64,000 nucleotides of DNA, from NCBI RefSeq assembly GCF_028768465.1, contig NZ_CP118225.1, positions 5,313,001 to 5,377,000 of the forward strand. Reading direction: 5' to 3'. The notes beneath the pieces are model-generated. The model ran no database searches. It was not told the DNA's origin and was given only the letters and a program-made list of their open reading frames with translations. The position numbers and the translations under genes were made by a program. Positions 27,483 to 61,798 of this stretch are shown here, piece by piece. This DNA comes from Rhodopirellula sp. P2. Its GTDB lineage: Bacteria; Planctomycetota; Planctomycetia; Pirellulales; Pirellulaceae. Numbering within the stretch: position 1 is the stretch's first letter; every line of letters starts with the position of its first letter.

Positions 27483-27770
27483 TCAATCCACCAAAACGCT
27501 GCATTGGGAATGTCTGCCACATGCCTCTCAACCGGACTCGCCGGCAAAGCCGCCGGAGTCCGAAGAACTGATCTGCAAATGTTGGCACAATTCGCTCAGA
27601 TGGACTAAAGCGTCGATCGCTGTCGGGATCACCGACGACACTCCACCTACCGATCAAATTGACCGTGAGGCGTCATCGCTTTCCAGTGAAACGGCAACTC
27701 GTCAGTCAATGCGGATTCAAGAACATGTTTCGGCAGGATGCCGATCCCCGCCAGTTCATCAAGGACGAAC

Positions 27771-43658: not shown

Positions 43659-44327
43659 TCAGTGGCGAATGAGGGTTCGGCGGGGCGAAAACTGGCATTC
43701 AATCTCGTCAATGTGCGGTTCGAAGGACGCCAAGATCCGAAGTTTTTCAGCAATCGCCTCGGACTCAACGGCGCCACTCAAGATCGTCCGGTTGCCTTGA
43801 TACGAAACCTGGATCGGGGTGCCGGCGATCAGACTCAATCTGGCTGCAAGCTTTTGGTCGCGTTTGGAAATGACCGCTGAAACGTAAGCCTCATCGGCCA
43901 TCTCGGATACGGAGATCGACAACTGCGGGTGATACATGGCTCCGGCGACGAGAGGCGGAACGGGCCGGTTGATCTGGGCCGAGCGATCCGGTGGTTCGCG
44001 AAGCGATTCGACCGATGTGCGGACGCGGCCGACACCGATGGCCTGGTCACTGCCAATGAATCCCTGTTGAGTACCACGACTGGGCCCCACAAATTCGTCC
44101 CGCGAACGATTGCCACGCAAAAAGCGTTCGCTGCCTTCCACAGCCCCCGCGGATTCCATGGCTGGCGGCGCCCCCTGACTGACAGAAGGCCGTCTCGTGA
44201 GTGGTTGCCCGAGTGTCCTGGCACCAAACAATTGGGCTTGGGCCGTTTCGGTGATCGAGAGGCAGGTCAACACTGCGATCGCAAAAATGGCGACAGGACG
44301 TGACATCGAGGGGGCGGTGGTGATCAT
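43659..44327 (-). CDS. Exported BON-like protein at the end of the type II secretion operon
   Basis: From the ATG at 44327, which overlaps the stop of the upstream gene (ATGA), the product is 222 residues with a signal peptide (V-A-I-F-A-I-A-V-L-T-C-L-S-I-T-E-T-A-Q-A-Q). The middle is low-complexity (Arg/Gly/Ser). The C-terminal 85 residues, with R-L-S-L-I-A-G-T-P-I-Q-V-S-Y-Q-G-N and T-I-L-S-G-A-V-E, resemble a BON (lipid/OsmY-like) fold of alternating strands and helix. As the last gene of the operon and an exported protein it may be a periplasmic accessory of the secretion system; this is inferred from the overlap and location. Confidence 0.65.
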   Translation of the reverse strand: MITTAPSMSRPVAIFAIAVLTCLSITETAQAQLFGARTLGQPLTRRPSVSQGAPPAMESAGAVEGSERFLRGNRSRDEFVGPSRGTQQGFIGSDQAIGVGRVRTSVESLREPPDRSAQINRPVPPLVAGAMYHPQLSISVSEMADEAYVSAVISKRDQKLAARLSLIAGTPIQVSYQGNRTILSGAVESEAIAEKLRILASFEPHIDEIECQFSPRRTLIRH

Positions 44328-45283: not shown

Positions 45284-47076
45284 AAGGAAACCTCAGGCAA
45301 GTCGGTTTTCGGATCGCCCGCAGGCGTGGACTGCTGGGAAGGCTCCGCTTGTTCTGGCACCGTCGTATTTTCTGGCACCGTCGCATTTTCTGGCAATGAG
45401 CTTGCATCGGGGGAAGCGGTTTCCACGGAGGCATCGGCTTCCAGGGGAGGCTCAATTCCAGCGGGTTGAGTGAAGATCTCTTCTTCTCGCTCATCGACAG
45501 GCGTGATGGGAAACGCGATCCTGGCTTCGAACTGCCATGGGTACTCTTCGTTGTTGGTTTGCTCGCTGACTCGTTTGCTAGTGATTGAGAACTTGGCATC
45601 ACGAAGCGCGTTTTCCAGTTCCGCGACGCGATTGGGGTCGTTGACTTGAACGGAGAGATCAATCACCCCCGTGCTGCCATCGACCGCGGCGGACAAACGC
45701 CGCACATTGGCGAGCTGACCTTCGGGGAATCGGCTGGACAAGCGTTGCAACTGGCTGAGCCAATCGACCTGGTCGCCGAGCCACTGCTGAACCAACCGCG
45801 TTTCGTCGGCCTTCTCTTGCATTTTGGCAGCGACTCGTTCCGCTTCGACCAATTCCTGTTGCTTGCCGTCGACTTGAGTTTTCAACGCCTGAACATCGCT
45901 GAGCAGCGTGTAAGACCCGATTCCCAGACTGCCCACCGCCAACGCTGCGATCGCCATCCACCGACGCATCGGATTGGGTGGTACGGGTGGGACCTTGGGA
46001 TGCACCAGGTCGACCGCCAAATGGTGTTCTTGAAACACGAACGCCGCAGCCGCCAACACTGGATCCGGAGCGGGAGCGTCGTCATCGGTGGATTGCTCGC
46101 TGCTCGCGTCGATTGGCATCGCCAAAGTCACCGGGCGTGCCTTGAGTGAGTCGCAAAGCGTGAGCAATGGGTCGGTGTCGGAGTCCGTGCCAAGTGGTCC
46201 GGTGGTGCCCTCGGGCAGCGCGTCACGCGGTCCTCGAACCAAAACCAGCATCTCTGGCATTTCGCCAGGCGAGACAAAGTCCATCAATGAAATGCTGCGT
46301 TGCACTTCCAATTGGATTTGATCAGTCAACGCGCCTGCATCATCGCTGCCAGCCCGGAAGGTTCGCAGCGACGCCAGGCGATTGCCGCGAAGAAAAGACA
46401 ACTCCACCTCGCCCTCGTAGACCACGATCAACACAGTCAAGGACGAACGGAAGACGCGTTGCTGACGAAGTTGATACAGGGGCGCGGTTTGTCGGGACGT
46501 GAACGCGGCGAGTTGCAGTCCCGTTTGAGCGACCGAATCGGTCCAGGCGTTCAGCTGACTTTGTTCGAGCGAGAAAGCGGCGGCAGTTTGTGAGCGTTTG
46601 GGTTCGCCCAGCTGTTTTTGATCCGCTTCACTGGCGTCGGAAGCCGTCTCCGCAGCGGCGACCATCGGCGACGTCGCTCCATCGAGCAGTCGATAGTCAA
46701 CGACCAACTCGTGGTCTCCATCGCCGATCAGTTGTTCCACTTCCGCTCGGATCAAGGCCGCGACTTCGGACGCGTCGGCCGGCGGTATCTCCACCGTCGT
46801 CATCTCCAAATCGGTCCGCGGCAGCAACAACACCAAACGGGAAGCAGTGATCTTGCTGGCCGTGAGCTGTTGTTGAAGAACGGCCAGCGCAGGCTGCTCT
46901 GCCTCGCGGGCCAGGGTCCCCCAGGCAACCGCCGCCAACCCGTCTTTGCGTTCCCTCACCACTAAGAAATACACGTTCACTTGGTCCCACGAAGCGACCA
47001 CGATCGGACCGCGTTTGGAGGGTGCGGCGAACGAGTGAAGGAAGGGGAGGCGGCTAAGGAAGGTGGGAACCGGCAT
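45280..47076 (-). CDS. gspL: GspL/PilM-PilN-like inner-membrane platform protein
   Basis: From ATG 47076 the product is 598 residues; longer in-frame options are coding shadows of gspK. The N-terminal half (about 20-330) has an actin-like cytoplasmic layout (V-V-A-S-W-D-Q-V-N-V-Y-F-L-V, L-V-L-L-L-P-R-T-D-L). One membrane helix lies at about 368-388 (A-L-A-V-G-S-L-G-I-G-S-Y), then a long coiled coil (Q-V-D-G-K-Q-Q-E-L-V-E-A-E-R-V) and a PilN-like periplasmic domain (D-L-S-V-Q-V-N-D-P-N). A Glu/Ser/Thr-rich tail ends the protein. It should bind GspE and GspF in the type II platform. Confidence 0.82.
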   Translation of the reverse strand: MPVPTFLSRLPFLHSFAAPSKRGPIVVASWDQVNVYFLVVRERKDGLAAVAWGTLAREAEQPALAVLQQQLTASKITASRLVLLLPRTDLEMTTVEIPPADASEVAALIRAEVEQLIGDGDHELVVDYRLLDGATSPMVAAAETASDASEADQKQLGEPKRSQTAAAFSLEQSQLNAWTDSVAQTGLQLAAFTSRQTAPLYQLRQQRVFRSSLTVLIVVYEGEVELSFLRGNRLASLRTFRAGSDDAGALTDQIQLEVQRSISLMDFVSPGEMPEMLVLVRGPRDALPEGTTGPLGTDSDTDPLLTLCDSLKARPVTLAMPIDASSEQSTDDDAPAPDPVLAAAAFVFQEHHLAVDLVHPKVPPVPPNPMRRWMAIAALAVGSLGIGSYTLLSDVQALKTQVDGKQQELVEAERVAAKMQEKADETRLVQQWLGDQVDWLSQLQRLSSRFPEGQLANVRRLSAAVDGSTGVIDLSVQVNDPNRVAELENALRDAKFSITSKRVSEQTNNEEYPWQFEARIAFPITPVDEREEEIFTQPAGIEPPLEADASVETASPDASSLPENATVPENTTVPEQAEPSQQSTPAGDPKTDLPEVSL

Positions 47077-48688
47077 GATCCAAGGGTGGGTTTGGCGAAA
47101 GCTCACCACGCAACTCGTCAATGTTGAAACCCTTCCCCCACGCGTCCCATTGGCGAAAACTTCGCAGGGCGACATGGGGGGCTGATCCGTCCAACGTCAC
47201 AGAGCAACGGAACGTCGGCGTGAAAGGGTCTCGAAAGGCAACGATTTGAGCGTGGTAGCAATCGCCTCCAACGGTGATCCAGGGCTGGAGTTTGATAAAG
47301 GTGGGTAAGTCGACGACGTTTTCAATCAATAGCCAAGCAATCGTGTTCCGCGAGGCGTTCGTGCTGGTCGGCGAAACCGAACCAGTTTGAGACGCACGTC
47401 GCTCGATGATTTGATCGACGATTTCAGGGGTGATCGTCGGAATGCCTAGCAAGACGGGGCGGGGAGCCTCCATCACGTCGACTTGGCCAACGATCACGCG
47501 ACTGGGATGGACCGTCACGTCGTCAACCAGACTGCTAATGTAGTTGCTGCGATCACCAAAGTCATCCGAGAATGGGCTCCGGATTGAGAATGGTTTCTCG
47601 TTGGCCTGTGAGACCTCGACTGTTGCGTTGGCCAATTCCAGTGGACTGGCAATTCGCACGGACGCGGGGATCGAAAAATCGGGGGTCCACTCGGCGGCGG
47701 TGACCAAGGAAGTTCCCGCCCGGGACGTTGATTGCCTCCGAATGCCAAACTGCCGCACGGCGATCACAAAGTTGGCCCGATCAGCCGGCCAAATTGTCAG
47801 CAGGTCCTGGTGAAGTTTTCGCAGGTCCGCCCCGTTGAGGAAAACCCTCGGTTGACCGCTGAGGCTTTCGTTCTTTTGCCCACTGTCAAATGTCAGATGG
47901 TCTCGCCAAGCCAGCGGCACCGCACTGGCCGCTCCATCGATGGAGCCCGCCGTTCCCAACGACGTTCGCTCTTCCAACAAGTTTTGTTCCAGCGAATCGA
48001 GTTGGTAGTTCATGTCCCAGTCACCGCCTGTCCAATGATTTGCCCACTCGCGAATCCGCTCGCCAGCATCCGCTCCACCGGTTGATGACACCCCGCCAGC
48101 TTCCTGCTGGTTAGCGAACGCCCCCATCCGATCGCTCAGGCTCATTGCGTTTGCTGGCGCCGTGTCGACGATGTCGTAAGCATTCATCAGTGCTTGCGCC
48201 ATCGCCAGGTCCATCCCCGGCAAATTCATCAGGGTCTTTTTGGCCTGTCCCGGGACAGCCGCTTCCCACTGGTTGAGTGCCAACAAGTTGATTTTGGCGG
48301 ATTCATTGGTGAGTCCAAATCGCCAAGCCTTGCTGAGTTCCATGGGCGTTCCCACCGCACTGGGATCTGCGGGCGACAAAACGGAGAACATCCATTGCGG
48401 CTCGACGTCTTCCGTTTGGCTGGCGTTTGGTTGCAGCGTCACGGCGGCGAACGCCGCCGATGGTTCGCGATGCCAGGTCAAACGGGTGCCGCGAGGTTGT
48501 TCCAAAGTGGATTGCAGGGCTTCAATTGCACTCATGACCGTCAAACGAGCTTGGGCGCGTTCGATTTGCAGCTTGCTGGAACGGTAGGCGTCAGCCATCT
48601 GCTGATTGAATCCATACGCGGCCAGCGCCACCATGGTCACGATCACCATGACGACCAACAGAGCCGTTCCGTTTCGGGGCTTATTCAT
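47054..48688 (-). CDS. gspK: GspK-type minor pseudopilin
   Basis: From ATG 48688 the product is 544 residues; it overlaps gspJ by 8 bp. The N-terminus is a prepilin-like helix (G-T-A-L-L-V-V-M-V-I-V-T-M-V-A-L-A-A). There is no Gly-Phe-Thr-Leu-x-Glu box, as is known for GspK, which lacks the Glu5. The body contains a GspK helix-hairpin region (N-L-P-G-M-D-L-A-M-A-Q-A-L-M-N-A-Y-D-I-V-D-T). At 544 residues it is larger than typical GspK (about 330). It should cap the tip of the pseudopilus. Confidence 0.85.
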   Translation of the reverse strand: MNKPRNGTALLVVMVIVTMVALAAYGFNQQMADAYRSSKLQIERAQARLTVMSAIEALQSTLEQPRGTRLTWHREPSAAFAAVTLQPNASQTEDVEPQWMFSVLSPADPSAVGTPMELSKAWRFGLTNESAKINLLALNQWEAAVPGQAKKTLMNLPGMDLAMAQALMNAYDIVDTAPANAMSLSDRMGAFANQQEAGGVSSTGGADAGERIREWANHWTGGDWDMNYQLDSLEQNLLEERTSLGTAGSIDGAASAVPLAWRDHLTFDSGQKNESLSGQPRVFLNGADLRKLHQDLLTIWPADRANFVIAVRQFGIRRQSTSRAGTSLVTAAEWTPDFSIPASVRIASPLELANATVEVSQANEKPFSIRSPFSDDFGDRSNYISSLVDDVTVHPSRVIVGQVDVMEAPRPVLLGIPTITPEIVDQIIERRASQTGSVSPTSTNASRNTIAWLLIENVVDLPTFIKLQPWITVGGDCYHAQIVAFRDPFTPTFRCSVTLDGSAPHVALRSFRQWDAWGKGFNIDELRGELSPNPPLDHAGSHLP

Positions 48689-49703
48689 GCGGGGCACCTT
48701 CCAGATTGCCTTGGAGTCCGCTGCCGGGGAGGAACACCACGATTCGCACGTCGCGGATGAGAGCGTCTTCGTCGTTGCCGGCCGCACTCGCATCATTCAC
48801 GGCGACCGGTTCGATCGACATCGCCAATTCCGCGAAATCGTCCGCGATGAACTCATCCGCCTCGTCGTCTTCGGGGTCGAGCGTTTCGTAGGAAGTGGAG
48901 GCGGCTGGCAAATCGAAGCTCAATTCAATCGCGCGTGGCAGCCCCCCCTTCAATTGGCTATCCCATTGGCCCAGCCATTGCACGCCATCGCTGTAGCGAA
49001 AACGGGGAGCGACGAGATTGCGGATGCTGATCGCCAGAGTCTCCCCATCGGCGGCGGTTTCACTGGGTCGTTCCTCCTCGGAAACGCGATACAGGTCGGC
49101 CGTGGTCAACTGCTTTTCAGACGGCGACGAGGAGGCTTTGGACCAGCGGTCAATCGGAACCAGTTCTCGCTGAACGTCAAAAAGCTCCTCTGCGGAATCA
49201 GTGGCGCCCGTGCCACTGACCGCAGCAGCGGGGACGATTTTGTAGTGCAAGTGATGGATGGTGAGCGGATCGAATGCAATCGAAGTGCTGGGATGCTCGC
49301 CAGTGTGTGCTTGAGTTGTGGTGGACAGGGGGGCCTCCGCTTGGGTGACCGCTTCCAACCACGGCAACGGATCAAATGACGGAATCAGGTCGACCTCGAA
49401 GCCCTGTTCATTCCCTTGGAACGGTCGCAATTGGGTGGGGTGTGACGAAAAAGACTGTGTGGGAGTCGATGACGGACTCATGGACACCCTGGGCTCCATC
49501 AAGCTGGCCGCGTCCGACTCCAGCCAATCGCGGGCGATGCGAATCACCTGCATTTGATAGGCTTGATTCCATCCACGTTGCTCGGCATCGCGATACGATC
49601 CTAGGATCGACCAAGCGACCATCATCAGCGCCGCCAGCAAGATCAGCGAGAGCATCAGCTCAAGGATCGTGTAGCCCCCGCGGCGAGTTGCGTCTGTATT
49701 CAT
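48681..49703 (-). CDS. gspJ: GspJ-type minor pseudopilin
   Basis: The 340-residue protein has a prepilin leader R-R-G-G-Y-T-I-L-E-L-M-L-S-L-I-L-L-A-A-L, with Gly before the aromatic residue and Glu5. An extended globular part follows with acidic patches (L-D-P-E-D-D-E-A-D-E-F), longer than classical GspJ. Its ATG overlaps the gspI stop (ATGA). With GspI and GspK it should form the pseudopilus tip. Confidence 0.85.
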   Translation of the reverse strand: MNTDATRRGGYTILELMLSLILLAALMMVAWSILGSYRDAEQRGWNQAYQMQVIRIARDWLESDAASLMEPRVSMSPSSTPTQSFSSHPTQLRPFQGNEQGFEVDLIPSFDPLPWLEAVTQAEAPLSTTTQAHTGEHPSTSIAFDPLTIHHLHYKIVPAAAVSGTGATDSAEELFDVQRELVPIDRWSKASSSPSEKQLTTADLYRVSEEERPSETAADGETLAISIRNLVAPRFRYSDGVQWLGQWDSQLKGGLPRAIELSFDLPAASTSYETLDPEDDEADEFIADDFAELAMSIEPVAVNDASAAGNDEDALIRDVRIVVFLPGSGLQGNLEGAPHE

Positions 49704-50206
49704 GGCGTGATTGAATCCGCCTGCATCAAACTTGTCGGTGGCAGTGCGTCTGTTGGCTCCGGTGATGCCGAATCGCTCGTTGATTGGCTGAGCGGCTGCG
49801 TTGCTCTTGTCCAGCGGACCAGACTCACGATGGCGGTGTCAGCCGAGTTCGACGACGCCCCGCCCCGTTCGTTGGCACGATCAATGGAAACGACGATTCG
49901 CTTCAGCCTGGATTCGTTTTGTTCGGTTGCCTCGACATCCGACAGTTCGATTCGATAGCGCCAACGCGGGTCGGACGGGAAACTGCCCTCCATTTCCAAC
50001 TCAGCGTTCGAACCAGTCGCAAGAAATTCGTCCATCGTGGACTGGGCCATCTGCAGCGCCACCGTTCGCTCTTCGGCCCGTCGCGCCAATTGGGTCGCTT
50101 GTCCCACCAACGTGAACAGTGCGACACCGCTGCTGGCAAGCAACGCGGTGGCCAGGACCATTTCCATCAAAGAGAGACCGCTGTGTGGCTTGCGTCGAGG
50201 ATTCAA
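49700..50206 (-). CDS. gspI: GspI-type minor pseudopilin
   Basis: The 168-residue protein starts at TTG 50206, which overlaps the gspH stop (TTGA). The prepilin helix is H-S-G-L-S-L-M-E-M-V-L-A-T-A-L-L-A-S-S-G-V-A, with Gly-Leu cleavage and Glu5. Q-S-T-M-D-E-F-L (about 55-62) is the conserved stretch after the helix. It belongs in the tip complex with GspJ and GspK. Confidence 0.82.
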   Translation of the reverse strand: MNPRRKPHSGLSLMEMVLATALLASSGVALFTLVGQATQLARRAEERTVALQMAQSTMDEFLATGSNAELEMEGSFPSDPRWRYRIELSDVEATEQNESRLKRIVVSIDRANERGGASSNSADTAIVSLVRWTRATQPLSQSTSDSASPEPTDALPPTSLMQADSITP

Positions 50207-50838
50207 TTGGAAAGCTCCCCGTCGCTAGGCGGTAGCGGAGCGGTCACCGACGCATCGTCCGGTGCCGCGGGTGACAACCGCGCGGTTCGCATCATCCCTG
50301 TGACCGCTTCGATTTCGATGGCCACGCGACTGTTGGTGGCTGTGTCACGCAGCACGATGATGGCCGCTCTCGTTTGGCCGCTGGGCAAGAACGGCAGGTA
50401 CCAAGTCGACGTCTCAAGATCGATCACGTCCGACGGCATCGACGTTTCATCAGCGACGACGTAGGCGGTTTGATCCAATTGAACTTCGTCAATCACGATG
50501 TCGACCGGAAGTTCCCAAGCATTCAGCTCGTGTTCCGCTTCCGTGCCACTTGGCGAACGATTGTCGGTCAATTGTTCGGCGACCAGGTCGGACCAGTGTC
50601 CCGATGTGACGAGCGGCTGGTTGGCATTGAATCGCATCAAACGCGGCTCCCCTTGGATTGCCGCGGTTTGTCGGCAATCGGAGATTTCGGCCCGCAAGAG
50701 ATTGGCGGCTTGCTGCACACTGCTGTCCGCCATCGGCCTTCGCAAGCTCGGCCACGCGACAGCACCGATCCCAACCATGATCGTCAAGACGATCATGAGC
50801 TCCAGCAGCGAGAAGCCGGTCTTGCAGGGACATTTCAA
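50203..50838 (-). CDS. gspH: GspH-type minor pseudopilin
   Basis: The likely start is TTG 50838, 13 bp after the gspG stop, giving 211 residues with a very short leader C-P-C-K-T-G-F-S-L-L-E-L-M-I-V-L. An ATG at 50919 would add 27 residues that overlap gspG. The Gly-Phe-Ser-Leu-Leu-Glu box is the prepilin site. The body has R-L-M-R-F-N-A-N-Q and several strands as in GspH. Two Cys directly before the cleavage site are unusual. Confidence 0.75.
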   Translation of the reverse strand: MKCPCKTGFSLLELMIVLTIMVGIGAVAWPSLRRPMADSSVQQAANLLRAEISDCRQTAAIQGEPRLMRFNANQPLVTSGHWSDLVAEQLTDNRSPSGTEAEHELNAWELPVDIVIDEVQLDQTAYVVADETSMPSDVIDLETSTWYLPFLPSGQTRAAIIVLRDTATNSRVAIEIEAVTGMMRTARLSPAAPDDASVTAPLPPSDGELSN

Positions 50839-50851
50839 AACGGGCGAGGCC

Positions 50852-51349
50852 TCACGCGTCGCTCGAGTCGGACAATTCCGACTCCTCTTCGCCTTCAGCA
50901 GGTTGGTTGCCAATGTCATCATCGGTCCCCGCTTGAGCGTCGGGGCCCACTGAGAAGATACGCGGGAAAGCAGGTTGCGAGCTATCGCTGCCACCTTCGA
51001 CGGCATCGAATTCATATTCGAAGTCGTTGCCCCAAGGATCAAGCGGAAGCTTGCTGCCATCGATGTAAGGGCCTGCCCACTTGCGAGCGAGACGCTCATC
51101 ATCGGGTGCTTTCAACAACGCTTCCAAGCCGTCTTCGGTCGCGGGGAACACCTTCATATCAACCACGTACATTTTCAGTGCCGAGGCCAAGTTACCGATT
51201 TGGACCTCCGCCGTTCGGATGTCCGCCTTCTGTTGCGACCCCAGCAATCGGGGTCCCACCATGGCGATCAATCCGACCAAGATGATCAACACGATCATCA
51301 ATTCCAACAGCGTGAAACCGCTGCGTTTGGGAGTGCTTCGACGTCTCAT
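50852..51349 (-). CDS. gspG: GspG-type major pseudopilin
   Basis: The 165-residue protein has leader R-S-G-F-T-L-L-E-L-M-I-V-L-I-I-L-V-G-L-I-A. The GspG body includes Q-I-G-N-L-A-S-A-L-K-M-Y, F-P-A-T-E-D-G-L-E-A-L and the calcium-loop region L-D-P-W-G-N-D-F-E-Y. The C-terminus carries an acidic 25-residue tail (E-G-E-E-E-S-E-L-S-D-S-S-D-A). It is the main subunit of the pseudopilus and should be the most expressed of the set. Confidence 0.93.
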   Translation of the reverse strand: MRRRSTPKRSGFTLLELMIVLIILVGLIAMVGPRLLGSQQKADIRTAEVQIGNLASALKMYVVDMKVFPATEDGLEALLKAPDDERLARKWAGPYIDGSKLPLDPWGNDFEYEFDAVEGGSDSSQPAFPRIFSVGPDAQAGTDDDIGNQPAEGEEESELSDSSDA

Positions 51350-51363
51350 AAGAATTTCCTTTG

Positions 51364-52584
51364 TTAGTTAACCGTTGAATTTAAATCGAAGACTGGCAGC
51401 AACACGCCCACGATCACAAACATGACCATGCCACCAATCAACACCAGCATCAATGGTTCGATCATTCGAACCATCACTTCCAGTTGACGTTCCACTTTGC
51501 CGTCGATGCGGTCGGCAATTTTGACCAGCACATCGTCGAGCGTGTTGGATTCTTCTGCGATGCGAATCATCGCCATGACCTGAGGCGGAATCAATCCACT
51601 CGCGGCCAATGGCTTTGCCAAGGTATCACCGGTGGTGATGTTCTCAGCCGACTTCAGCATGGCCTGCTGCAACAGTCGATTGCCGGTCGACTCACTGCTG
51701 ATTTTCAGTGATTTCAGCAGTGGCACGCCATTGCGAAGCAACGTCCCCAACACGCGACACGCGCGGGAAACAGCGGCGTCGTGAAAGATGTCACCCAGCA
51801 CGGGGATCTTCAACTTCCAGGTGTCCCAGGTTGTGCGTCCGCTGTCGGAGGCCAAGTATTTCTTCACCCCAAACACAATCGCAATGACTGGAATGGGTAA
51901 CAGCAACCCGTAGTTGAGCAATGTGTGACTGACCGCCAGCAACAACACCGTGATCAGTGGCAGACCGGACCCGGTGGCCTCCAACCGATCAAAGAACGGT
52001 TGGAACTTGGGAACCAAAAAGACCATCATCAAGGATGTGATCAAGGTTCCGACGACGCCCAGAATGATTGGGTAGGCCAAAGCACTGACGATCTTGGAAC
52101 GCATTTCATCTTGCTTGCACAAGAACACACTGGTTCGTTGGAGCGACTCTTCTAAGAACGCCCCCTCTTGCCCGGCCCGGACCATGCTGAGCGTCAATTC
52201 CGAAAAGATGGCGGGTTCGGCTGCCATCGCTTGGTCGAGGGTTGCCCCTTCGGCAACAGCGTCGTGGATCCGCTTGGCAGCGTCTTGGAGTCGCGGGTTG
52301 ATCGTGACTTCGCCCAGAATCGACAGGGCCTCCAACATGGGGACGCCATTGTTCAGGAGGTCCGCCAGTTGGGTACACAGATCCGCGATCTGTTCCTTCT
52401 TGATGCGCTGGGGCAACTGGAACTGGGTGACGTCTCCCATCGCAGGCTTCACATCGGAAACACTGACGGGGTACAGCGTTTGCTGACGCAATCGTTGCAT
52501 CGCTGCCCGGCGTGTCTGGGCGGCGATGGTACCTTCCCGCCGTTCTCCCGTCGCAGTTTTTGCGACATATGCGAAGTCTGGCAT
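51364..52584 (-). CDS. gspF: GspF inner-membrane platform protein
   Basis: The 406-residue protein has two GspF-domain repeats (about 70-195 and 272-395), each with L-L-N-N-G-V-P-M-L-E-A-L / L-L-R-N-G-V-P-L-L-K-S-L. Three membrane helices are evident: about 170-195, 215-235 and 375-400. The start ATG is 4 bp after the gspE stop. It anchors the ATPase and assembles the pseudopilus. Confidence 0.94.
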   Translation of the reverse strand: MPDFAYVAKTATGERREGTIAAQTRRAAMQRLRQQTLYPVSVSDVKPAMGDVTQFQLPQRIKKEQIADLCTQLADLLNNGVPMLEALSILGEVTINPRLQDAAKRIHDAVAEGATLDQAMAAEPAIFSELTLSMVRAGQEGAFLEESLQRTSVFLCKQDEMRSKIVSALAYPIILGVVGTLITSLMMVFLVPKFQPFFDRLEATGSGLPLITVLLLAVSHTLLNYGLLLPIPVIAIVFGVKKYLASDSGRTTWDTWKLKIPVLGDIFHDAAVSRACRVLGTLLRNGVPLLKSLKISSESTGNRLLQQAMLKSAENITTGDTLAKPLAASGLIPPQVMAMIRIAEESNTLDDVLVKIADRIDGKVERQLEVMVRMIEPLMLVLIGGMVMFVIVGVLLPVFDLNSTVN

Positions 52585-52588: not shown

Positions 52589-54274
52589 TCAGTCCGCCTT
52601 GGTGACGCGAAGCACTTCGTCCACGGTCGTCAATCCACTGCAGACTTTTTCCCAGCCATCGCTACGCAGCGTTTGCATGCCGGCTTCGATGGCGGCCTTC
52701 TTGATCAAATTGGAGGCTGCACGCTGGGTCGCCAAGTCACGAATTTTTTCGTTCGTGACCAGCAATTCATAGATCCCCATCCGGCCTTTGTAGCCTGTGC
52801 CACGGCACTGCTCACATCCCTGTGGCTGGTACAGCGGACCGTTCAATTTCTCCAATGGGAAATCGTCCGGCAGTTCCGCCACGTTGGGCGTGTACTCTTG
52901 GCGACAACTGGAACACAGACGCCGGACCAACCGTTGGGCCATGACGCCCTCAACCGTGCTGGCGACCAGGAACGGTTCCACGCCCATGTCGCACAATCGC
53001 ATGAACGATCCAGCGGCGTCGTTGGTGTGCAAGGTGCTGAACACCATGTGCCCGGTCAGCGAGGCCTGCGTGGCGTTCTCCGCCGTTTCCAGGTCACGAA
53101 TTTCGCCAATCAGCACCACGTCCGGGTCATGCCGCAGAATCGCCCGCAAGCAGGCTGCAAACGTCAATCCAACCTTTTGTTGAACTTGGATCTGATTGAT
53201 CCCTTCGAGTTGATACTCGATCGGGTCTTCCGTCGTGATGATCTTGGTGTCTTCGGATTTGATCTCATTGAGCGAACTGTACAGCGTGGTTGTTTTCCCG
53301 CTGCCCGTGGGTCCGGTGACCAACACGATCCCGTGCGGCATCCGAATCAGCTTTTGATATTTCTGATACGTGTCTTCGGGCATTCCGATGTCACGCAGCG
53401 ACAAACTGAGGTTCGATTTGTCGAGCACCCGCATCACGACGCCTTCGCCGTGCAACATCGGAATGATCGAGACCCGCAAATCGACTTCGCGTCCGGCCAC
53501 ACGCAGTTTGATGCGTCCGTCTTGCGGAACTCGTTTTTCCGCGATGTTCATCTTGGACATGATCTTCAAGCGACTGACGATCGCCGCCTGAAATTGGTTC
53601 ATCTCTTGCGGCACGCTCTGCCGTTGCAGCACACCGTCGATCCGGTATCGCAGTTTCAGTCGATTCTCTTGGGCCTCGATGTGAATGTCACTGGCACGCG
53701 TCTCAACGGCTTCACTGAGGATTTCGTTGACCAACCGGACGACCGAAGCCTGCGCGGCTGCTTCTGCGTCCTCGGACCCATCGAGTTGCAACTCTTCGAG
53801 CATCTGGACATCGCCGCTCTGCTGTCGCTGCATCGCGATCAGGCCGTCGATCGTTTCAGCGCCAACGCCCAGGTTTTGTTTGATCAGTTGGCGGACGGTT
53901 TCCGGCGTCGCGACCACCGGGCGGACTTCCAGCGACAGCGCGGTGGCGATCGTGTCGAAAGCTCCGAACGAAAACGGGTTGCTGACCGCCAAGCGGATCC
54001 AATTCTCATTTCGCTCCAGCGGAAACACCTCGTAGCGGTGAATCATCTTCAGCGGGAAGCCATCCAAAGCCGCCGGGTCCACTTCCACTTCTTCTGCGTC
54101 GAGCCATTCCAAGCCCATCACGCGTGCGGTTTCCGCCAACAACGCGACGTCACTTTCAAAGTCCCACTGGATGGCCAGGGTGCCCAATTCACTTCGGTCT
54201 CGAAGCGAATCGGCGACTTGCCGAAGTTGCAGGGCGCTCAGGGCGGGTGCGATTCCGTCGATTTGTGTAATCAT
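52589..54274 (-). CDS. gspE: GspE secretion ATPase
   Basis: From ATG 54274 (earlier in-frame codons are not supported) the product is 561 residues. The N-terminal domain (1-150) is the GspE-N/MshEN type. The ATPase has Walker A G-P-T-G-S-G-K-T-T-T (about 323), the Asp box I-T-T-E-D-P-I-E-Y, Walker B V-V-L-I-G-E-I-R-D and the His box S-T-L-H-T-N-D-A. A zinc-type tetracysteine C-S-S-C...C-E-Q-C is present near residue 460-500. Hexameric motor of the system. Confidence 0.96.
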   Translation of the reverse strand: MITQIDGIAPALSALQLRQVADSLRDRSELGTLAIQWDFESDVALLAETARVMGLEWLDAEEVEVDPAALDGFPLKMIHRYEVFPLERNENWIRLAVSNPFSFGAFDTIATALSLEVRPVVATPETVRQLIKQNLGVGAETIDGLIAMQRQQSGDVQMLEELQLDGSEDAEAAAQASVVRLVNEILSEAVETRASDIHIEAQENRLKLRYRIDGVLQRQSVPQEMNQFQAAIVSRLKIMSKMNIAEKRVPQDGRIKLRVAGREVDLRVSIIPMLHGEGVVMRVLDKSNLSLSLRDIGMPEDTYQKYQKLIRMPHGIVLVTGPTGSGKTTTLYSSLNEIKSEDTKIITTEDPIEYQLEGINQIQVQQKVGLTFAACLRAILRHDPDVVLIGEIRDLETAENATQASLTGHMVFSTLHTNDAAGSFMRLCDMGVEPFLVASTVEGVMAQRLVRRLCSSCRQEYTPNVAELPDDFPLEKLNGPLYQPQGCEQCRGTGYKGRMGIYELLVTNEKIRDLATQRAASNLIKKAAIEAGMQTLRSDGWEKVCSGLTTVDEVLRVTKAD

Positions 54275-54607
54275 GGTCAGCACGCTTGGGTGGGGGCCAA
54301 ACACTCGCATCGCCCGCGGTGGACTCGGCCGAGAGAATCCGGCCGGCTTCGACGAGAGCATGGCTCACGAACGTGGCGGCGGGAAGTCAGCGAGACTCAT
54401 TCGCAGAGACGCAATGGCGACGCCTGACAACCGATCGCGAAATCACGCAAGGTGCTTTCACGGTCTGCTGATCCGACGACAGTCTTTGGCTCTTGGGGGT
54501 GGGATCGGGAACCGGACGACAACCGTGTCTGGGGGCGTCCCGATTGATTGGGGGTGGGTGTCAACTCTCAATGGTAGTGAAGTAAGTCCATTGAGTCAAA
54601 GTGTTCC
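54275..54607. other. Gap between the giant N-domain gene and gspE (333 bp)
   Basis: This is the only gap over 25 bp inside the operon. No gene or hairpin terminator is apparent. It could hold an internal promoter for gspE to the BON-like gene. Confidence 0.5.
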
Positions 54608-57600
54608 TCAGCGGCCTCGGCCGCCGCGTCCGGTTCGCAGGAATTGCTGTAAAACCTGCTCCATTTGCTCCACATTGGTCGTTTGCAGGGGAATGATTCG
54701 CATTTTGCCCGCGCGATTGCTGACAGACTGCTGGTCGATTTGCTCGACAAAACGACGGATTTCCAGGGAGAGTTCGGGTGGGGCACGCATCACGAGCGAA
54801 TTGCTGATTTCATCCACACTCAGGGTCAACAGGGGACCTGAATTCTCGGCATTGATCAATTCCAGCATCGAAGCGACCTCCGCGGAGACCCCTTCGGGAA
54901 TCGAGATTTGCGGCCGATTTTGTCCGCGTGAAAGCTGGCTGGCGTACACCGTGCGGAGCATGTCCTCCACGCGTTGAGCGCTGGTGTGCAGGATCGGAAC
55001 GATCTGAGGTGTCACCAGTTGCAGCGAGTCAATGAATTCAGGTGAATCCAAGACCGCCAGCAAATCTTCGATCACACCGCGTGTCGCCCGAGAACTCTGG
55101 ACGATCAAGGCGTTGATTCGCGTGTCGGCAACGATCCGTGTTTGCGACGTGTCGGTGGTCAATCGAGCACGCGAACTGGCGCGGCTTTCTTGAAACAGGT
55201 CTGTCAGCAAATCTTCCAGGTCCTCGGCATTGCCATGTTTCAGGACATAAACCGACAAGTTGCCGCTTTCCGTGACAGCTGTCATGGGCGGACTCAGGGC
55301 GACCTCCAGCAATTTCGCCAGCATGTCGAGCGCTGCGGTGTCTTCGGAGGCAATCACCCACTGGCCGTCACCCGGCAGAATCAGGACGGCTGGGTTGTCC
55401 ACTTCGCCCGCTTCCGAGACGTCCGTTGTTTTTTCGACGCTTTGGTTGGCGACCAACTGCACCGCAGGGTCACGGCGATCGTTCGTGCTTTGCAAATCGA
55501 CTGCAGCGGGATTGGGCTGCGGCTTCAGCTCTTGCTCAACCTCCTGATTCGACTCGCCCTCTCCGGAATGGATCACCCGCAGTGGGTTATTGCGCAGTTT
55601 GGGCCAAACCTCTTCCAACTGCTTCAAAAGAGATTCGGAATCGCGGCCGACCGAAATCGTTCGCACGCGAGCACCGGACCGAGGCATCCCGGAGGAAATT
55701 TGATCGGCCCCCGGTGCCGACACCACGTTTTCCCCCAGCCGGCCGAGCAAGGTTCGAATCTCACCGAGTTGCTGCGTGGTTGCGCGGATCAACAATTGCT
55801 GGCGATCCTGGTCGACCGTGATCGCCGGGACTTCATTGGTCGGCAGATCCGCAAACAGGGAATTCACCGCCTCGCGAACCGAGTTGGGATCGTTTTCTTG
55901 GAGCGGGAAGATCTCGAGTTCGCGTTCGGGCGGATCAAACTGCACCAACGTTTCTTCGACCAACTTCAATTGCTCTTCATTGCCGATGACCACCAATTGT
56001 TCATTGTAGAAGTCGTAGCGAACGTCGACGGGTGGACGGGCATCGGCGAACAGGGTCTGCACGGCTTCCGCCACATCGTCGCCATCGATCCCGGCGAGTG
56101 AAAACGCTTTCAAACGACGATCGCGTGCCAAGGAATCGATGCGATCCATCTGCTCGATCACCTGCTTGGCAATCTCTTGCTCGCGGGGCAGGCCGACGAC
56201 AAACACGGTTCCGCTTTCATCATCAGCACTGACTCCCACGGTCGACCGTCGACCGAACGCTTGCTGCAGAGCCTCGACCACACTCTGCGGGTTTGCCTTG
56301 GCCAAGGGGTAAGCTTGCATCTCTGTCGATCGTGCAGGGGCGTCGTTGATCTGCTGCACGAGCTCGGCGATTTCTTGCTGTTCTTTCTCGGGGGCAGAAA
56401 CAATCAGGGTGTCGTTGACCGAGTCGGCCCCAATCGTGGCTTGTGGGTACGTCGCTTGCAGAGCCAGTCGCAGCGTCGCCGCGTTGCCATTTTCAAGTGC
56501 ATAACTCTGCGTGATCTGTTGCCCGCCCGCATTCAACTGTTCGACAAACGCCTCGATCATCAGATGGTCTTCTTCACTGGCCGAGACGATCAAGCTGTTG
56601 CTGGTTGTGTCGGCCGAGACGGTGGTCTTCGGAAAACTGGACTGCAACGCCAACCGGATGGCCGCGGCACTGCCGTTTTCCAAGGCGTAGTTCTTGGCGA
56701 TTTGCTTCCCATCCGCGTTCATGTCCTGGATCACTTCGGCGATTTTCGCGTGATCCTCTTCGCTGGCAGAAACGATCAGGTGGTTGCTGACCGAATCCGC
56801 GGAGATGGTCGTCAGCGGAAAACTGGCCAGCAACGCCAAACGCGTCGTCGTGGCACGACCAGTCTCCAACGCGTAGGTCTTGGTGAGCTTGGTTTGCCCC
56901 GTGTTCAGCTGTTTGACAAACGCCTCGATCATCAGGTGGTCGGCTTCGCTGGCCGAGACGACCAAGCTGTTGTTGACCGTGTCCGTGGAGACCGTTGTGC
57001 TCGGAAAACTGGACTGCAATGCCAACCGGATTGCCGCCGCACTGCCGTTTTCCAAGGCGTAATTCTTGGTGGTTTGTTTCCCATCGGCGTTCATGGCTTG
57101 GATCACTTCGGCAATCTTCGCATGGTCCTCTTCGCTGGCGGAAACGATCACGTGGTTGGTCGTGGAGTCCGCTGAGATGGTGGTCTTTGGAAAACTGGAC
57201 AGCAATGCCAGGCGGGTGGTCGAAGCGCGGCCGCTTTCGAGGACGTAGCTCTTGATCACCTTCCTTTCAGCTGAGTTCAACGAATCAAATAGTTTTTCAA
57301 TTTCGAGATGCTCGGCCTCGGTCGCAGAAATGATCAGACGGTTGTTGGTTGTGTCGGCGGCGATCTTGGCACGCGGGAACGAGCCTTGGATCGCGGGCGA
57401 AAGCGAGTAAGTCGTGCCTTCATCCAGCTCATAACTCTTGGTCGTACGTTGCTTGTCGGGGTCGGATTCCATGCTGTCAATCGCCACCGAGATGCGTTCC
57501 AGAATCTCCTTGGGCGCGGTCACGATCAATCGATTGCTGATCCGATCCGGCGTGACGCGAGCCGTCGGTGCCATTTGTGTGACGGCCAACGAAAGCGACG

Positions 57601-60600
57601 CTGCGTCGGCATCGCCCAGTTCAAACACCTTGGTTTCCGCGTTGTCCATTTGGCGGTCGTCGTACTGCTGGATGAACGCTTGGATGGTTTCGTGGTCCTC
57701 CGCAGTGCCGGTCGCTGCAACCGATTTCCCCACGACATCGGCGGCAAAGACAACCTGCGGCAGCAGCGTTGTGAGGACACGAACGGCACCCGTCGGGTCA
57801 CCGAATTCCAACGGGTAGACGACCGACGTGGTCGGTTCCGGTGCTGGGACCTGTTCCTGCAACTGTTTCAACCACGCCGCAAACTTGGTGTGTTCCGTGG
57901 GTGACGCGAGCAACAGGATCCGTTCCGGGTCGGCGCTCGGCAGCAGCCTCGCTCGTGGGACCTCGGTGGACACGCCCGTGACGGCTTGCTGTGTCAGATC
58001 CTTGCGAATCGGGTAGACCTGCAATTCTCGCTGGCCCGCTTCCGAAAAGACCCTTTCCAGTTCTTCGATGATCTGGGCGATCCCCGCGTGGGCCTGTTCG
58101 GTGGCTGAGATCACCAAGCGGTTGGTCCCCGCGCCGCTGAGAATCTTGGCAGCGGGTTGGCGTTCGGCGAGAAATGTTTGAAACGCCGTGGGATCGGCAC
58201 GGTCCAGTTCGTAAGCCCGCACGTTGGTTTCGGGCAATGGCCCCGTTTCGTCGGCCAGCTTTTGGAGCAGTGTCGCGACGCGTTCGTGATCCTCGGGTGA
58301 GGCCAGAATCATCATTTGGTTGGGGTTCGTCGAACCGGTCACAATGACGGTCGCACGAGGCACTGTGGTGGCCATGACACTGGTGAACGCCGTGCGTATC
58401 TCGGCGGTGGTTTCGTACAGTCGAGGCTCCAGCTTCGATCCTTCCTTGTCGGCTTGCGTGGTCTTTGCCAACACGGCAGCGATTTTTTGCTGCAAGTCCT
58501 TGGGCGCCAGGATCGTCAATTGCCCGCTTGCCGCGTCGGCACCGATGCTGGCGGTGGGAAACAGAGTCACCAGGACCAATCGTGTCGCGGCTGCCTTTTC
58601 CGGGGCGACTTGATGGACCTCGATCTCACGGCGATCTTCTGCCGCCGTGGTGAGTTGTTCGATTGCCGTTGCGACTCGCTTGTGCTGCTCTTCGCTGGCC
58701 CAGACCACCACCGCGCGGTTGGCCGTGTCGGTGCTGATGATCGCTTGCGGGGCAATTTGACTGAGCACGGTCGGCAATGTTTTCAAGTCGCCAATTGGAA
58801 GACTGTACGTCTCCACCCGCATCGATTCGCCCGTCGCCGACGTGTTGAGTCGCTCAATCGATAGGTGGAACGTTTCATGGTCCTTGGCATTGCCCGAGGC
58901 AACGATTCGGTTGCTGGTGGCATCGACGGACAGCTTCATTCGCGGCCACATGGCCTGCAACGTCGGCAGCATGGTTGCCGCCTGCAGGTCATTCAGTTCG
59001 TAAGCCCGGATTTCCTCGCTGGCGAACTTGGATGCGGGCCGGTCGACTTCCTGGATCAGCGTTTTGATCCGTCCATGCTGCGCCAGCGTCGCCGTGACAA
59101 CCAGCTGCTGACGCCGATCATCGGCGATCACCGTCGCACCGTCGATCGCTTGGTCGATCAGCAGCTTCACATCCGTCGCTTGGGCTTCCGCCAGGCTGTA
59201 GGCCAGTAAAATCAGTTCTTGCTCCGCCGGCATTGGCTTGTCGAGCTCTTTGACGAATTCACCGACCTGTTGGTGTGCCTCGGCGGTGGCCATGACGAAC
59301 AATCGTCGCCCGGCCGTGTCGACCGTGATCGGTCCAATCGGTTGGAACGTGCCGCGACTTCCCGCGGCCGTGACGGAAGCAATCACGGGTGCCAGCAAGG
59401 CCTGCAGTTCAGTCGGCGTGCGGCCTGCGGAACGATAACTCTGGAGGACCAACTCAGGATTCGACGGCAGTTCGTCGGAGATCTGCGCCAGCAGTTCGGC
59501 CACTTTCCCATGCGTCTCTTGTTCGGCCCACACGGTCAGTTGTCCCGAAGCGGCATCCGCGGTGACTCGGGCACCGGGGAACCGGATCGACAACAGTTCG
59601 CTGAACAGGGCGGGGTCGCGCTGGTCCAGATCGTAAACCTTCGGCCAGTGCAGCGCTGTCTGCGGGGTCGCCTGCTTGAGTTGCGAGATCGCTTCGCCCA
59701 GGCGGACGTGGTCTTGTTCGGTGGCCCACACCAACAACTCCGAGGAACCATCGTCGCCCGCCGGACGCACGATCGGTTGGATGCCTGGAATTTGTGCGGC
59801 GAGAACGGGTGCCAACTGTTGCCAACGGGTCAATTCCGTCGCCGACAATGCATACGTCTTGAGCATGCGTTCAGGGGGTGCCGGCAAAGCGGTCAGCAAT
59901 TGGGGCAGCATCGCTTCGAGACGAGTCTTCTCTTCGGCGGAGCCCAGCAGGACCAGTTTTTTCGCCTCCGAGTCCAACCAAATCTGTGCTCTTGGAATGA
60001 CCTTGGCGACCGTCGCAAGCCAATCGGCGGTTCCAGGGAGTGGCAGATCGAACGCATGCAAAGTCGTTCCGCTGTCCAGGTCCGCACCACGCCAACGCTC
60101 GATCACCTGTTCGGCCAAGGCAATGTCATCGGCAGTGCCGCGAACGACAACGGTTCCCAACGATGCGTTGCCCACGACCTGGGCCGCCGGGATCATTGAC
60201 TGCAAAGCCCTGGAAATGACGGTGGATTGAACGGGGTCGACCTGAAACGCTTTGACTTCCATGTCGGATTTCATTGCCGAGATGCCCATCGCAGAGAAAG
60301 CCTCGGCAATCCGTGCCTGTTCATCGGGGGACGCGGTGATCAGCACCCGTGCCGCAACCGCGTCAACACTGACCGTGGCACGCGGTGCGATCGCGGTGAC
60401 TTGTTCGCGAATTTGTTCCTCACTGCCATGACGCAGTGGGTAAGCGACGGAGACACTCGCTGGCGCGGCCTCGATTTCCTCACGCATTTTTTCAACGGCG
60501 GTCTGGATCGCGGTCTGTTGCGTGGGGATCACGAAGGCGGTCAGCAGTCTGGTTTTCTCATCGACCGCGATCCGCTCGCTGCCGACCAGTTCCTTCATCG

Positions 60601-61570
60601 CACTCAGCACGACAACGGGATCGAGGTCCCCGAGCGCGTAGGCTGCAAACACGGGTGCGGGCGGCTTCTCGGGCTTGTCAGGTTTCGGGGTCGCCCGTGG
60701 CTCTGGGACTGTGTTGATCAAAACATTGATCGTGTCCATCTTGCCAGCCGTTTCAACGACCAACAACTGCTTGCTTTGCGGCAACGGGATCGCGCGGCCA
60801 AAGGTTCCCAGGTAAGGCTGGACCTCGTTGATCACCGCATCGACCGGACGGTTGCCGAGAGAAAACAGGACGCTGACCAATTCGAACCTGCCGCGACTGG
60901 GCAGATTTTCCAACGGAACACGCGGTATCAATTCAATCGGGATTGAATTGGAGAGCTGCAACACCGTCAGCATCTTTTCGCGACGAACCAGCGTGTAACC
61001 TCGCGTCAACAACACACTGTTGAGCAAATCGATCGCCTCGGACGCATTGTACGATCGCGTGTCGGTGTAGGTGAATGTGCCCGGCGGGACCTGGTTCATC
61101 ACCAGCGTCAAACCTTCCTGGCGGGCGAACCAATCCAACACATCGCCCCAGGCCTGCTCACGAAATTGAAAACGCAACGCACTGGTGGGGCCAGTCGTGC
61201 TCCATTGTTTCAGCTGATCGGCGTTGAGCGTGTCACGAATTTGTTGGTCGATCGCGATCAAACGTGCCTTCTGATCGGCAGCGTCTGGCGACGCGCTGAT
61301 TTCGAGCCGTTCGACAAGCAACGATTGAATCTTGGCACGCTGTTGATCGTCCAAGCCCAATTCGGCGGCAATCTCCGGGTGGACCAATCGACTGACTTGG
61401 TCGGCAGGAAATGGCGATCCCAATGAAGCCGGGGGGGTGGTTTCAGATTCCGCTGTTGGATCGGCGGTCGCTGGCGTGGTTTGATCCGGAGGCTGGGCCG
61501 CGACCGGCGGCAGCGATGCACAAACCAACAGCAATGGAACGACGCGAATCAGGTGTCGGGGGGGCAGCAT
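54608..61570 (-). CDS. Giant secretin N-domain repeat protein, type II secretion locus
   Basis: The 2320-residue protein has a signal peptide (V-V-P-L-L-L-V-C-A-S-L-P-P-V-A-A-Q). A short helical region follows (60-120, L-D-D-Q-Q-R-A-K-I-Q-S-L-L ... L-N-A-D-Q-L-K-Q-W). An N0/STN-like domain is at about 131-205 (F-R-E-Q-A-W-G-D-V-L-D-W-F) and an N1-like domain at about 212-290. From about 309 to the end come roughly 28 repeats of 62-75 residues of the NolW/secretin-N type, with consensus A-D-x-x-x-N-x-L-I-V-S-A-S-x-x-D-H. No C-terminal secretin beta-domain is visible; the protein ends in a Gly/Arg tail. Most GspD proteins have only a few such domains. It is first of the operon; the channel must come from another gene, perhaps the divergent one. 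Confidence 0.85.
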   Translation of the reverse strand: MLPPRHLIRVVPLLLVCASLPPVAAQPPDQTTPATADPTAESETTPPASLGSPFPADQVSRLVHPEIAAELGLDDQQRAKIQSLLVERLEISASPDAADQKARLIAIDQQIRDTLNADQLKQWSTTGPTSALRFQFREQAWGDVLDWFARQEGLTLVMNQVPPGTFTYTDTRSYNASEAIDLLNSVLLTRGYTLVRREKMLTVLQLSNSIPIELIPRVPLENLPSRGRFELVSVLFSLGNRPVDAVINEVQPYLGTFGRAIPLPQSKQLLVVETAGKMDTINVLINTVPEPRATPKPDKPEKPPAPVFAAYALGDLDPVVVLSAMKELVGSERIAVDEKTRLLTAFVIPTQQTAIQTAVEKMREEIEAAPASVSVAYPLRHGSEEQIREQVTAIAPRATVSVDAVAARVLITASPDEQARIAEAFSAMGISAMKSDMEVKAFQVDPVQSTVISRALQSMIPAAQVVGNASLGTVVVRGTADDIALAEQVIERWRGADLDSGTTLHAFDLPLPGTADWLATVAKVIPRAQIWLDSEAKKLVLLGSAEEKTRLEAMLPQLLTALPAPPERMLKTYALSATELTRWQQLAPVLAAQIPGIQPIVRPAGDDGSSELLVWATEQDHVRLGEAISQLKQATPQTALHWPKVYDLDQRDPALFSELLSIRFPGARVTADAASGQLTVWAEQETHGKVAELLAQISDELPSNPELVLQSYRSAGRTPTELQALLAPVIASVTAAGSRGTFQPIGPITVDTAGRRLFVMATAEAHQQVGEFVKELDKPMPAEQELILLAYSLAEAQATDVKLLIDQAIDGATVIADDRRQQLVVTATLAQHGRIKTLIQEVDRPASKFASEEIRAYELNDLQAATMLPTLQAMWPRMKLSVDATSNRIVASGNAKDHETFHLSIERLNTSATGESMRVETYSLPIGDLKTLPTVLSQIAPQAIISTDTANRAVVVWASEEQHKRVATAIEQLTTAAEDRREIEVHQVAPEKAAATRLVLVTLFPTASIGADAASGQLTILAPKDLQQKIAAVLAKTTQADKEGSKLEPRLYETTAEIRTAFTSVMATTVPRATVIVTGSTNPNQMMILASPEDHERVATLLQKLADETGPLPETNVRAYELDRADPTAFQTFLAERQPAAKILSGAGTNRLVISATEQAHAGIAQIIEELERVFSEAGQRELQVYPIRKDLTQQAVTGVSTEVPRARLLPSADPERILLLASPTEHTKFAAWLKQLQEQVPAPEPTTSVVYPLEFGDPTGAVRVLTTLLPQVVFAADVVGKSVAATGTAEDHETIQAFIQQYDDRQMDNAETKVFELGDADAASLSLAVTQMAPTARVTPDRISNRLIVTAPKEILERISVAIDSMESDPDKQRTTKSYELDEGTTYSLSPAIQGSFPRAKIAADTTNNRLIISATEAEHLEIEKLFDSLNSAERKVIKSYVLESGRASTTRLALLSSFPKTTISADSTTNHVIVSASEEDHAKIAEVIQAMNADGKQTTKNYALENGSAAAIRLALQSSFPSTTVSTDTVNNSLVVSASEADHLMIEAFVKQLNTGQTKLTKTYALETGRATTTRLALLASFPLTTISADSVSNHLIVSASEEDHAKIAEVIQDMNADGKQIAKNYALENGSAAAIRLALQSSFPKTTVSADTTSNSLIVSASEEDHLMIEAFVEQLNAGGQQITQSYALENGNAATLRLALQATYPQATIGADSVNDTLIVSAPEKEQQEIAELVQQINDAPARSTEMQAYPLAKANPQSVVEALQQAFGRRSTVGVSADDESGTVFVVGLPREQEIAKQVIEQMDRIDSLARDRRLKAFSLAGIDGDDVAEAVQTLFADARPPVDVRYDFYNEQLVVIGNEEQLKLVEETLVQFDPPERELEIFPLQENDPNSVREAVNSLFADLPTNEVPAITVDQDRQQLLIRATTQQLGEIRTLLGRLGENVVSAPGADQISSGMPRSGARVRTISVGRDSESLLKQLEEVWPKLRNNPLRVIHSGEGESNQEVEQELKPQPNPAAVDLQSTNDRRDPAVQLVANQSVEKTTDVSEAGEVDNPAVLILPGDGQWVIASEDTAALDMLAKLLEVALSPPMTAVTESGNLSVYVLKHGNAEDLEDLLTDLFQESRASSRARLTTDTSQTRIVADTRINALIVQSSRATRGVIEDLLAVLDSPEFIDSLQLVTPQIVPILHTSAQRVEDMLRTVYASQLSRGQNRPQISIPEGVSAEVASMLELINAENSGPLLTLSVDEISNSLVMRAPPELSLEIRRFVEQIDQQSVSNRAGKMRIIPLQTTNVEQMEQVLQQFLRTGRGGRGR
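56518..57259. repeat. Recent 372-bp two-domain duplication inside the giant gene
   Basis: Four of the repeats (residues about 1438-1684) form two copies of a 124-residue pair. The DNA words match at exact 372-bp spacing (for example 56701 and 57073). The paired units are far more alike than other repeats in the protein, which shows recent lengthening by tandem duplication. Confidence 0.85.
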
Positions 61571-61798
61571 GGAGTTGAATCCGGCGGGAGCTTCGCAAAT
61601 CGGAAGCTTGTGGGGGGAGGGTTCAGGGGAACTTCGAACCAGATCGTCACTCTAACTCGTGCCGTCAGTGGGTCAAGCAAACACCGCAACTTGACTTGAC
61701 AGGCGAGCAATCAATTGCCTAGTTCGAGACGCTGACAATTCTCGGCGACAGGCGACTGTGCGCGCCGATATTTCTTTCTACGAAAGCCGGAAGTTAGG
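61571..61798. promoter_or_regulatory. Divergent promoter region of the two secretin-like genes
   Basis: This is a 228-bp gap between divergent starts. A TTGACA at 61696-61701 followed by 17 bp and CTAGTT could serve the plus-strand gene, but the -10 is weak. No other motif is convincing. Confidence 0.3.

Follow-up and report, generated by a model that had tools for sequence, protein, structure and literature searches.

A giant channel-less secretin-N protein and its channel-bearing partner: a candidate split secretin in a planctomycete type II secretion locus

The giant gene and its surroundings

The window analyzed here, a stretch of 64,000 nucleotides of the Rhodopirellula sp. P2 chromosome (NZ_CP118225.1, positions 5,313,001 to 5,377,000), carries on its minus strand a gene for a protein of 2320 amino acids, which heads a same-strand run of gspE, gspF and gspG followed by gspH- to gspM-like genes (table 1). 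On its other side, the giant gene adjoins a divergently oriented gene for a secretin with a channel, hereafter the partner secretin. An earlier note on this DNA had described the giant as a secretin-N protein of about 28 domains without a channel, standing first in an operon with gspE to gspM. The reading frame proved to be exact, and the operon was recovered as described, with E, F and G identified by Pfam, H to K by matches under the cut-offs, and L and M by position. With respect to membership of a type II secretion system (T2SS), GspE, GspF and GspG all exceeded the Pfam cut-offs, GspE and GspF remained under the NCBIfam equivalog cut-offs, the H to K matches were all below cut-off, and the GspD-type channel secretin was supplied by the partner. 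The frame of the gspH-like gene probably extends beyond its real, shorter start.

Table 1. Features of the giant secretin locus, in window coordinates (AF2, AlphaFold2).
Feature	Position	Strand	Basis
Giant channel-less secretin-N protein	54608..61570	-	ORF, Pfam, repeat HMM, AF2
N0 domain, aa 131-206	60953..61180	-	Weak PF21305, family N0 HMM, AF2 fold, Foldseek
First N1-type domain after N0, ~aa 230-290	60701..60883	-	AF2 beta-alpha-beta-beta-alpha fold
Array of 25 N1-type domains, aa 309-1950	55721..60646	-	Repeat HMMs
Amplification hot spot, units 18-21, aa 1440-1684	56519..57253	-	Repeat and DNA comparison
Conserved C-terminal module, aa 1966-2320	54611..55675	-	Alignment, AF2
Partner secretin, first 734 of 1188 aa	61799..64000	+	ORF; N1 domains
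Divergent intergenic region, giant/secretin genes, 228 bp	61571..61798	.	One weak minus-strand promoter-like match
gspE ATPase	52589..54361	-	PF00437 E=7e-141; TIGR02533 625 bits, just below 630 cut-off
gspF	51364..52584	-	PF00482 over cut-off; TIGR02120 334 bits, below 424 cut-off
gspG major pseudopilin	50852..51349	-	PF08334 over cut-off
gspH-like minor pseudopilin	50203..51102	-	TIGR01708 E=4e-9, under cut-off
gspI-like	49700..50206	-	TIGR01707 E=5e-6, under cut-off
gspJ-like	48681..49703	-	PF11612 E=5e-4, under cut-off
gspK-like	47054..48796	-	NF037980 E=2e-9, under cut-off
gspL-like	45280..47175	-	Position; no relevant family match
gspM-like	44324..45283	-	Position; no family match

The giant comprises an N-terminal hydrophobic stretch that looks signal-like by eye, an N0 domain, about 29 N1-type domains, half an N1 domain and a short basic tail; between the N-terminus and N0, residues 61-124 (window 61199-61390) have a look that is presumably LTxxQ-like. 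Pfam matched 21 Secretin_N stretches (E=1.3e-133) and, weakly and under the cut-off, the GspD N0 domain (E=0.052, aa 144-199); it returned no match to the Secretin channel (PF00263) at E up to 1 and none to the GspC family. The best NCBIfam model was TIGR02517 (GspD), which matched 12 stretches (E=2e-78) with 264 bits against a cut-off of 351. A family N0 HMM matched the N0 domain at E=9e-42, a value to be read with the fact that this HMM was trained on the same family. An HMM built from the repeats of the giant itself found 27 copies, and adding orthologues to it contributed an extra half copy, giving 28 hits. AlphaFold2 added an N1-type fold at about residues 230-290, which the repeat HMM left unmatched, and a low-confidence one at about residues 1966-2095 that is interrupted by a disordered insert; from the HMM copies and these additional folds we counted about 29 N1-type domains plus N0, close to the number first proposed. 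The median spacing in the array was 65 residues. The C-terminal module consists of the N1 domain with the disordered insert, two further N1 domains, the half domain and the tail.

AlphaFold2 models were obtained for residues 126-785 (37 sequences; mean pLDDT 82, pTM 0.34) and 1752-2320 (31 sequences; pLDDT 71, pTM 0.30). They contained N0, then repeated beta-alpha-beta-beta-alpha units and the terminal half unit, with most linkers predicted to be about 4-10 residues long; at these pTM values, the predicted models do not fix the arrangement of one domain relative to the next. In Foldseek searches of the PDB, the N0-N1-N2 structures of XcpQ/GspD were top for one segment, and 8co1 and ExeD for the other, so that the repeats modelled as secretin N domains and no unrelated fold was seen. 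A sequence search of the PDB with a profile of the N-terminal alignment also placed 8co1, which we take to be DR_0774 of Deinococcus, at the top (E=3.7e-12), with GspD entries next.

Complementary domain content and one-chain relatives

The gene of the partner secretin (L007:1300-4866) runs past the window end, beyond which its channel lies, and ends at L007:4866. Pfam found seven Secretin_N stretches and a channel (PF00263) over the cut-off in this protein, the N1 HMM gave nine hits, and TIGR02517 scored 349.4 bits, slightly below its cut-off of 351.35. PF00263 matched five frames of the window genome; the giant was not among them, and the best was the divergent gene at 61799. Thus, the notion of a secretin without a channel held for the giant chain and not for the locus, since the adjacent divergent gene is the channel partner. 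Neither N0 nor STN was found by Pfam at E up to 0.1 in six partner secretins and one paralogue, and the family N0 HMM was likewise without a match in three other secretins of the window genome. Because this HMM is family-trained and the Pfam N0 model is insensitive (0.052 for the giant), the partner may hide a divergent N0 beyond the reach of the models used. Downstream of the partner, outside the window, is a gene for a 347-aa lipoprotein-like protein. A paralogue of the partner was observed at L008:12188-16009 (1273 aa, seven Secretin_N stretches and a channel, no N0 found); it is also followed by a lipoprotein-like gene, with no giant beside it within the 19 kb examined.

N0, N1 and channel HMMs were run on 41 giant-type proteins, of which 35 were complete, six ended at a contig end and three belonged to a short class described below. 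All 41 had N0 and lacked a channel match, whereas all 17 partner secretins, one of them without its full 5' end, had the channel and lacked an N0 match; a stricter channel model without an N1-like start gave the same division. In these genomes an N0-positive, channel-less gene co-occurred with an N0-negative channel gene, as a split secretin would be expected to show. A channel hidden at the C-terminus was considered for named contigs, whose 80 N0 frames (52 of them complete) come in many cases from genomes already counted and are hence not independent; an early channel HMM had flagged ten of these frames. Those matches were confined to the N1-like start of the profile (10.7-13.6 bits), and the channel model with that part cut matched none of the 80, which rules the hidden channel out.

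Single proteins with all three parts were found elsewhere in the phylum. A survey of 294 genomes contained seven frames of at least 3500 aa outside the class (L094-L098, L199, L200), and all seven combined N0, a long N1 array and the channel in one chain; four came from a single genus. Such frames are uncommon, having been seen in at least 4 of 108 phylum genomes among the matches listed. They were 3575-5073 aa long, the longest probably being read too far upstream, and gave 36-51 N1 hits in the five counted with the present HMM, with an N1 spacing of about 78 residues against 65 in the giant. In two of them Pfam recorded 42 and 35 Secretin_N stretches plus Secretin. When the N1 region of the partner (aa 345-745) was compared with five one-chain proteins, its best match lay just before the channel in all five. 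With a longer partner profile this was so in four, and in L098 the top match fell in mid-array, outscoring the match that precedes the channel by 3 bits. Matches of the C-terminal module of the giant were scattered over the fused arrays. The neighbourhoods were partly alike: a weakly related lipoprotein gene followed the fused secretin at three of five loci (E=1.8e-5 to 3.8e-4), the likeness at the other two being judged by eye only; a GspM-like gene preceded it with weak support in L095, L097 and L098 (E 1e-6 to 0.003), and in L094 at E 0.01 in a frame that overlaps the fused one at its beginning, the latter having probably been given a start too far upstream; and GspL-like genes preceded it in L097 and L098. 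The GspL and GspM models used here were built from two to three sequences. It is mainly the one-chain order in these relatives that suggests that the two window genes are halves of one structure.

The window genome also encodes three shorter channel-less proteins with N0 and N1 domains, of 893, 985 and 1015 aa (L011:4844-7525, L012:6352-9309 and L013:6030-9077, respectively). The gene for the 985-aa protein overlaps a gspE-like gene that is followed by a gspF-like gene, both named by look and order. Given these paralogues, short secretins in split form may be more general.

Distribution and variation in repeat number

We searched 149 Pirellulaceae genomes with 234 aa of the N-terminal part of the giant. 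Some relative was present in 141 of them at E up to 1e-5, the longest frame among the matches listed having 4169 aa. The giant was counted as present in the 39 genomes with a frame of at least 1590 aa and in six with fragments, four of which were ended by a contig end and two of which (G079, G143) lay in several frames; these two giant genes, L193 and L198, appear broken or mis-assembled. A partner secretin at 61% identity or more, a threshold set after viewing the list, was found in 47 genomes. Both genes were present in 43 genomes, only the giant in two (72% and 77% complete), only the secretin in four (73-91% complete) and neither in 100, a co-occurrence with Fisher p=3e-30 when genomes are treated as independent of kinship. 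The pair shared a contig in 22 of the 43 genomes and was on separate contigs in 21. Among the 22, 19 pairs were at most 30 kb apart: seven within 2.7 kb on the upstream side of the giant, one at 7.9 kb, and 11 downstream of it at 18-26 kb; in the other three, more than 200 kb separated the genes. At the G031 locus, gspK, gspL and gspM run into the secretin and lipoprotein genes at the far end. Downstream sequence of 3 kb or more was available at 29 loci; gspE directly followed the giant at 19 of them and was missing from the flank examined at the other ten. A divergent secretin beside the giant, as in the window, occurred at five of 32 loci with at least 4.5 kb upstream, and did not adjoin it at the remaining 27.

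Within the genus, an orthologue of the partner's lipoprotein was present in the window genome and one sister, and missing from 11 of 13 genomes. Five other members of the genus in the 149-genome sample had no match to the giant better than E=1e-27, which is the level of the shorter paralogues. As judged from the 11 genomes without the lipoprotein orthologue and the five sampled among them without a giant, the system is accessory within the genus.

The check on orthologues suggested earlier showed that repeat number varies, from 16 to 52 hits. In particular, complete long proteins had 17 to 52 N1 hits, scattered over many values in the 17-34 range and, beyond it, at 48 and 52; those on named contigs had 16-36, and a separate short class had about 6-9. 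Among cultured species, strain CA13 had 34 N1 hits and Blastopirellula marina DSM 3645 had 7. In a tree of N0 and the first N1 domain (96 rows: 66 long, 22 short, five fused and three paralogues), the long class formed nearly one clade, with the odd short rows L117 and L151 inside it, L117 coinciding in position with the split frame of G079. The fused proteins formed a clade of their own, with long branches that leave the deep order unsure. In the sister species L073 the giant is equally long, gives the same 28 hits and shows 94% ungapped identity; as this identical length came together with a one-contig window genome, a sequencing or annotation artefact was ruled out. The whole-gene dN/dS between the two was 0.084, indicating purifying selection on the giant.

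In a comparison with three proteins from the closest other genus, the order of units 1-17 and of units 22-27 was conserved, at 54-86% identity, and the change in unit number was confined between units 17 and 22. This hot spot has a period of 62 residues, with units 18/20 and 19/21 being 83% identical, and appears in the DNA as a 186/372-bp tandem repeat; identity between 62-aa units reaches 83% in the window and 100% in L056. Its dS between the giant and L073 was 0.119 versus 0.36 for units 1-17, as is expected of homogenized repeats. The more distant L057 and L058 showed a partial correspondence of units with the giant.

A possible split secretin and its alternatives

GspD (TIGR02517; PulD, XcpQ) resembles the giant in having N0 followed by N1-type domains and a gene just before gspE. 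It has three such domains (N1-N3), compared with about 29 here, and in the present case the channel is missing from the chain and comes from a second gene. Since no channel was found in it, we regard the giant as a variant of the T2SS secretin and not as GspD itself. GspC bridges the platform and the secretin, a role that the giant would share; the GspC family (PF11356) was found in none of 28 surveyed genomes and in two of 14 controls. On these sequence comparisons, the giant and its partner most likely form the secretin of a GspC-less T2SS.

We proposed that the giant is probably the periplasmic module of a two-piece secretin, with its rings stacked as a conduit. The giant would be exported, and its N0 end would face the inner-membrane platform formed by GspE, GspF and the L- and M-like proteins; by analogy with GspD, this orientation, with the N1 layers toward the outer membrane, is the most likely one. 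The N1-type domains would then stack as ring layers away from the inner membrane, and the C-terminal module would contact the N1 rings of the partner secretin, a protein that terminates in the outer-membrane channel. From these likenesses we infer that the giant is exported, forms rings, docks on the partner and spans the periplasm, and that the system secretes. The two proteins together could thereby form a long conduit in which the pseudopilus works across the wide planctomycete periplasm, and whose length would evolve as 62-residue units are added or removed in frame at the single hot spot. If each secretin N ring is 2.5-3 nm high, about 29 layers of the giant and nine of the partner, or roughly 38 N1 layers plus N0, might build a tube of about 100 nm that acts as an evolvable ruler for membrane spacing; to this more specific proposal we give only tentative credence.

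The same domains might instead make a flexible strap, in which one or a few giant copies run like beads on a string from the platform to the secretin without forming rings. The bridging task left open by the lack of a GspC match in the 28 genomes would suit such a tether, the low pTM values are compatible with loosely arranged beads, and a strap could accommodate the wide variation in repeat number. Most modelled linkers are, however, about 4-10 residues long, and the one-chain relatives carry array and channel in a single polypeptide, so that every channel subunit brings one array. Secretins are oligomers, and this equality of array copies and channel subunits favours ring layers over a single tether, so that we consider the strap unlikely, though by some distance the least unlikely of the alternatives. 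Adjacent domains could also lie side by side, with one chain closing one or two rings by itself. The domain number of about 28-29 comes close to double the 12-15 subunits that a secretin usually has, yet the counts among relatives (16-36, 17-34, 48 and 52), judged informally, are unlike those that a closed ring would demand, and we give this arrangement almost no weight. There is also little to recommend a separate adhesin, or a periplasmic scaffold binding peptidoglycan or cargo, that shares the N-domain fold and lies near the T2SS genes by chance. Such a protein would fit the linkage to gspE at 19 of 29 loci, which is not universal, and the existence at other places in the genome of three shorter channel-less paralogues, of which one precedes gspE- and gspF-like genes; it is at odds with the nearly one-to-one co-occurrence with the partner secretin and with the same domain order in single chains of other families.

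The idea of a periplasmic extension, put forward in the earlier note, was thus strengthened for the two-piece secretin by the channel partner, the one-chain relatives, the variable repeats, the lack of a GspC match and the precedent of PilQ. Like the giant, Thermus thermophilus PilQ combines extra N rings with a wide periplasm; it differs in having six rings and the channel in the same chain, and in serving a type IV pilus system. Passages of PMC5745081 term its six rings unusual and describe them as spanning most of the wide periplasm. Parts of PMC5394234 describe a planctomycete periplasm that varies and is at times greatly enlarged, and a link of the giant secretin to the crateriform structures treated there was considered. 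T2SS genes have been reported in a planctomycete in PMC6906331, the main text of which does not contain the word secretin. Among the best-ranked literature matches, we found no report of a split, giant or many-N-domain planctomycete secretin.

The main interest of the giant secretin lies in its split and its scale, the known secretins being single chains with a small number of periplasmic rings. The two-gene form, which would have several times the six rings of PilQ, is spread over many genera of planctomycetes; elsewhere in the phylum, N0, the long N1 array and the channel form one polypeptide, about 3500 to more than 4500 residues long. If the proposed arrangement is true, it would illustrate the adaptation of envelope-spanning machines to the depth of the periplasm, and the series of 16 to 52 repeats would offer a natural length series relating ring number to membrane distance.

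Other genes in the window include those for an 868-aa protein with cytochrome c7/c3-like and MtrC/F-like matches (9111-11717), an AcrB-family transporter adjoining an outer-membrane efflux protein (24048-29630), and a 1000-aa protein with TPR, FG-GAP and ASPIC/UnbV domains (35438-38440).
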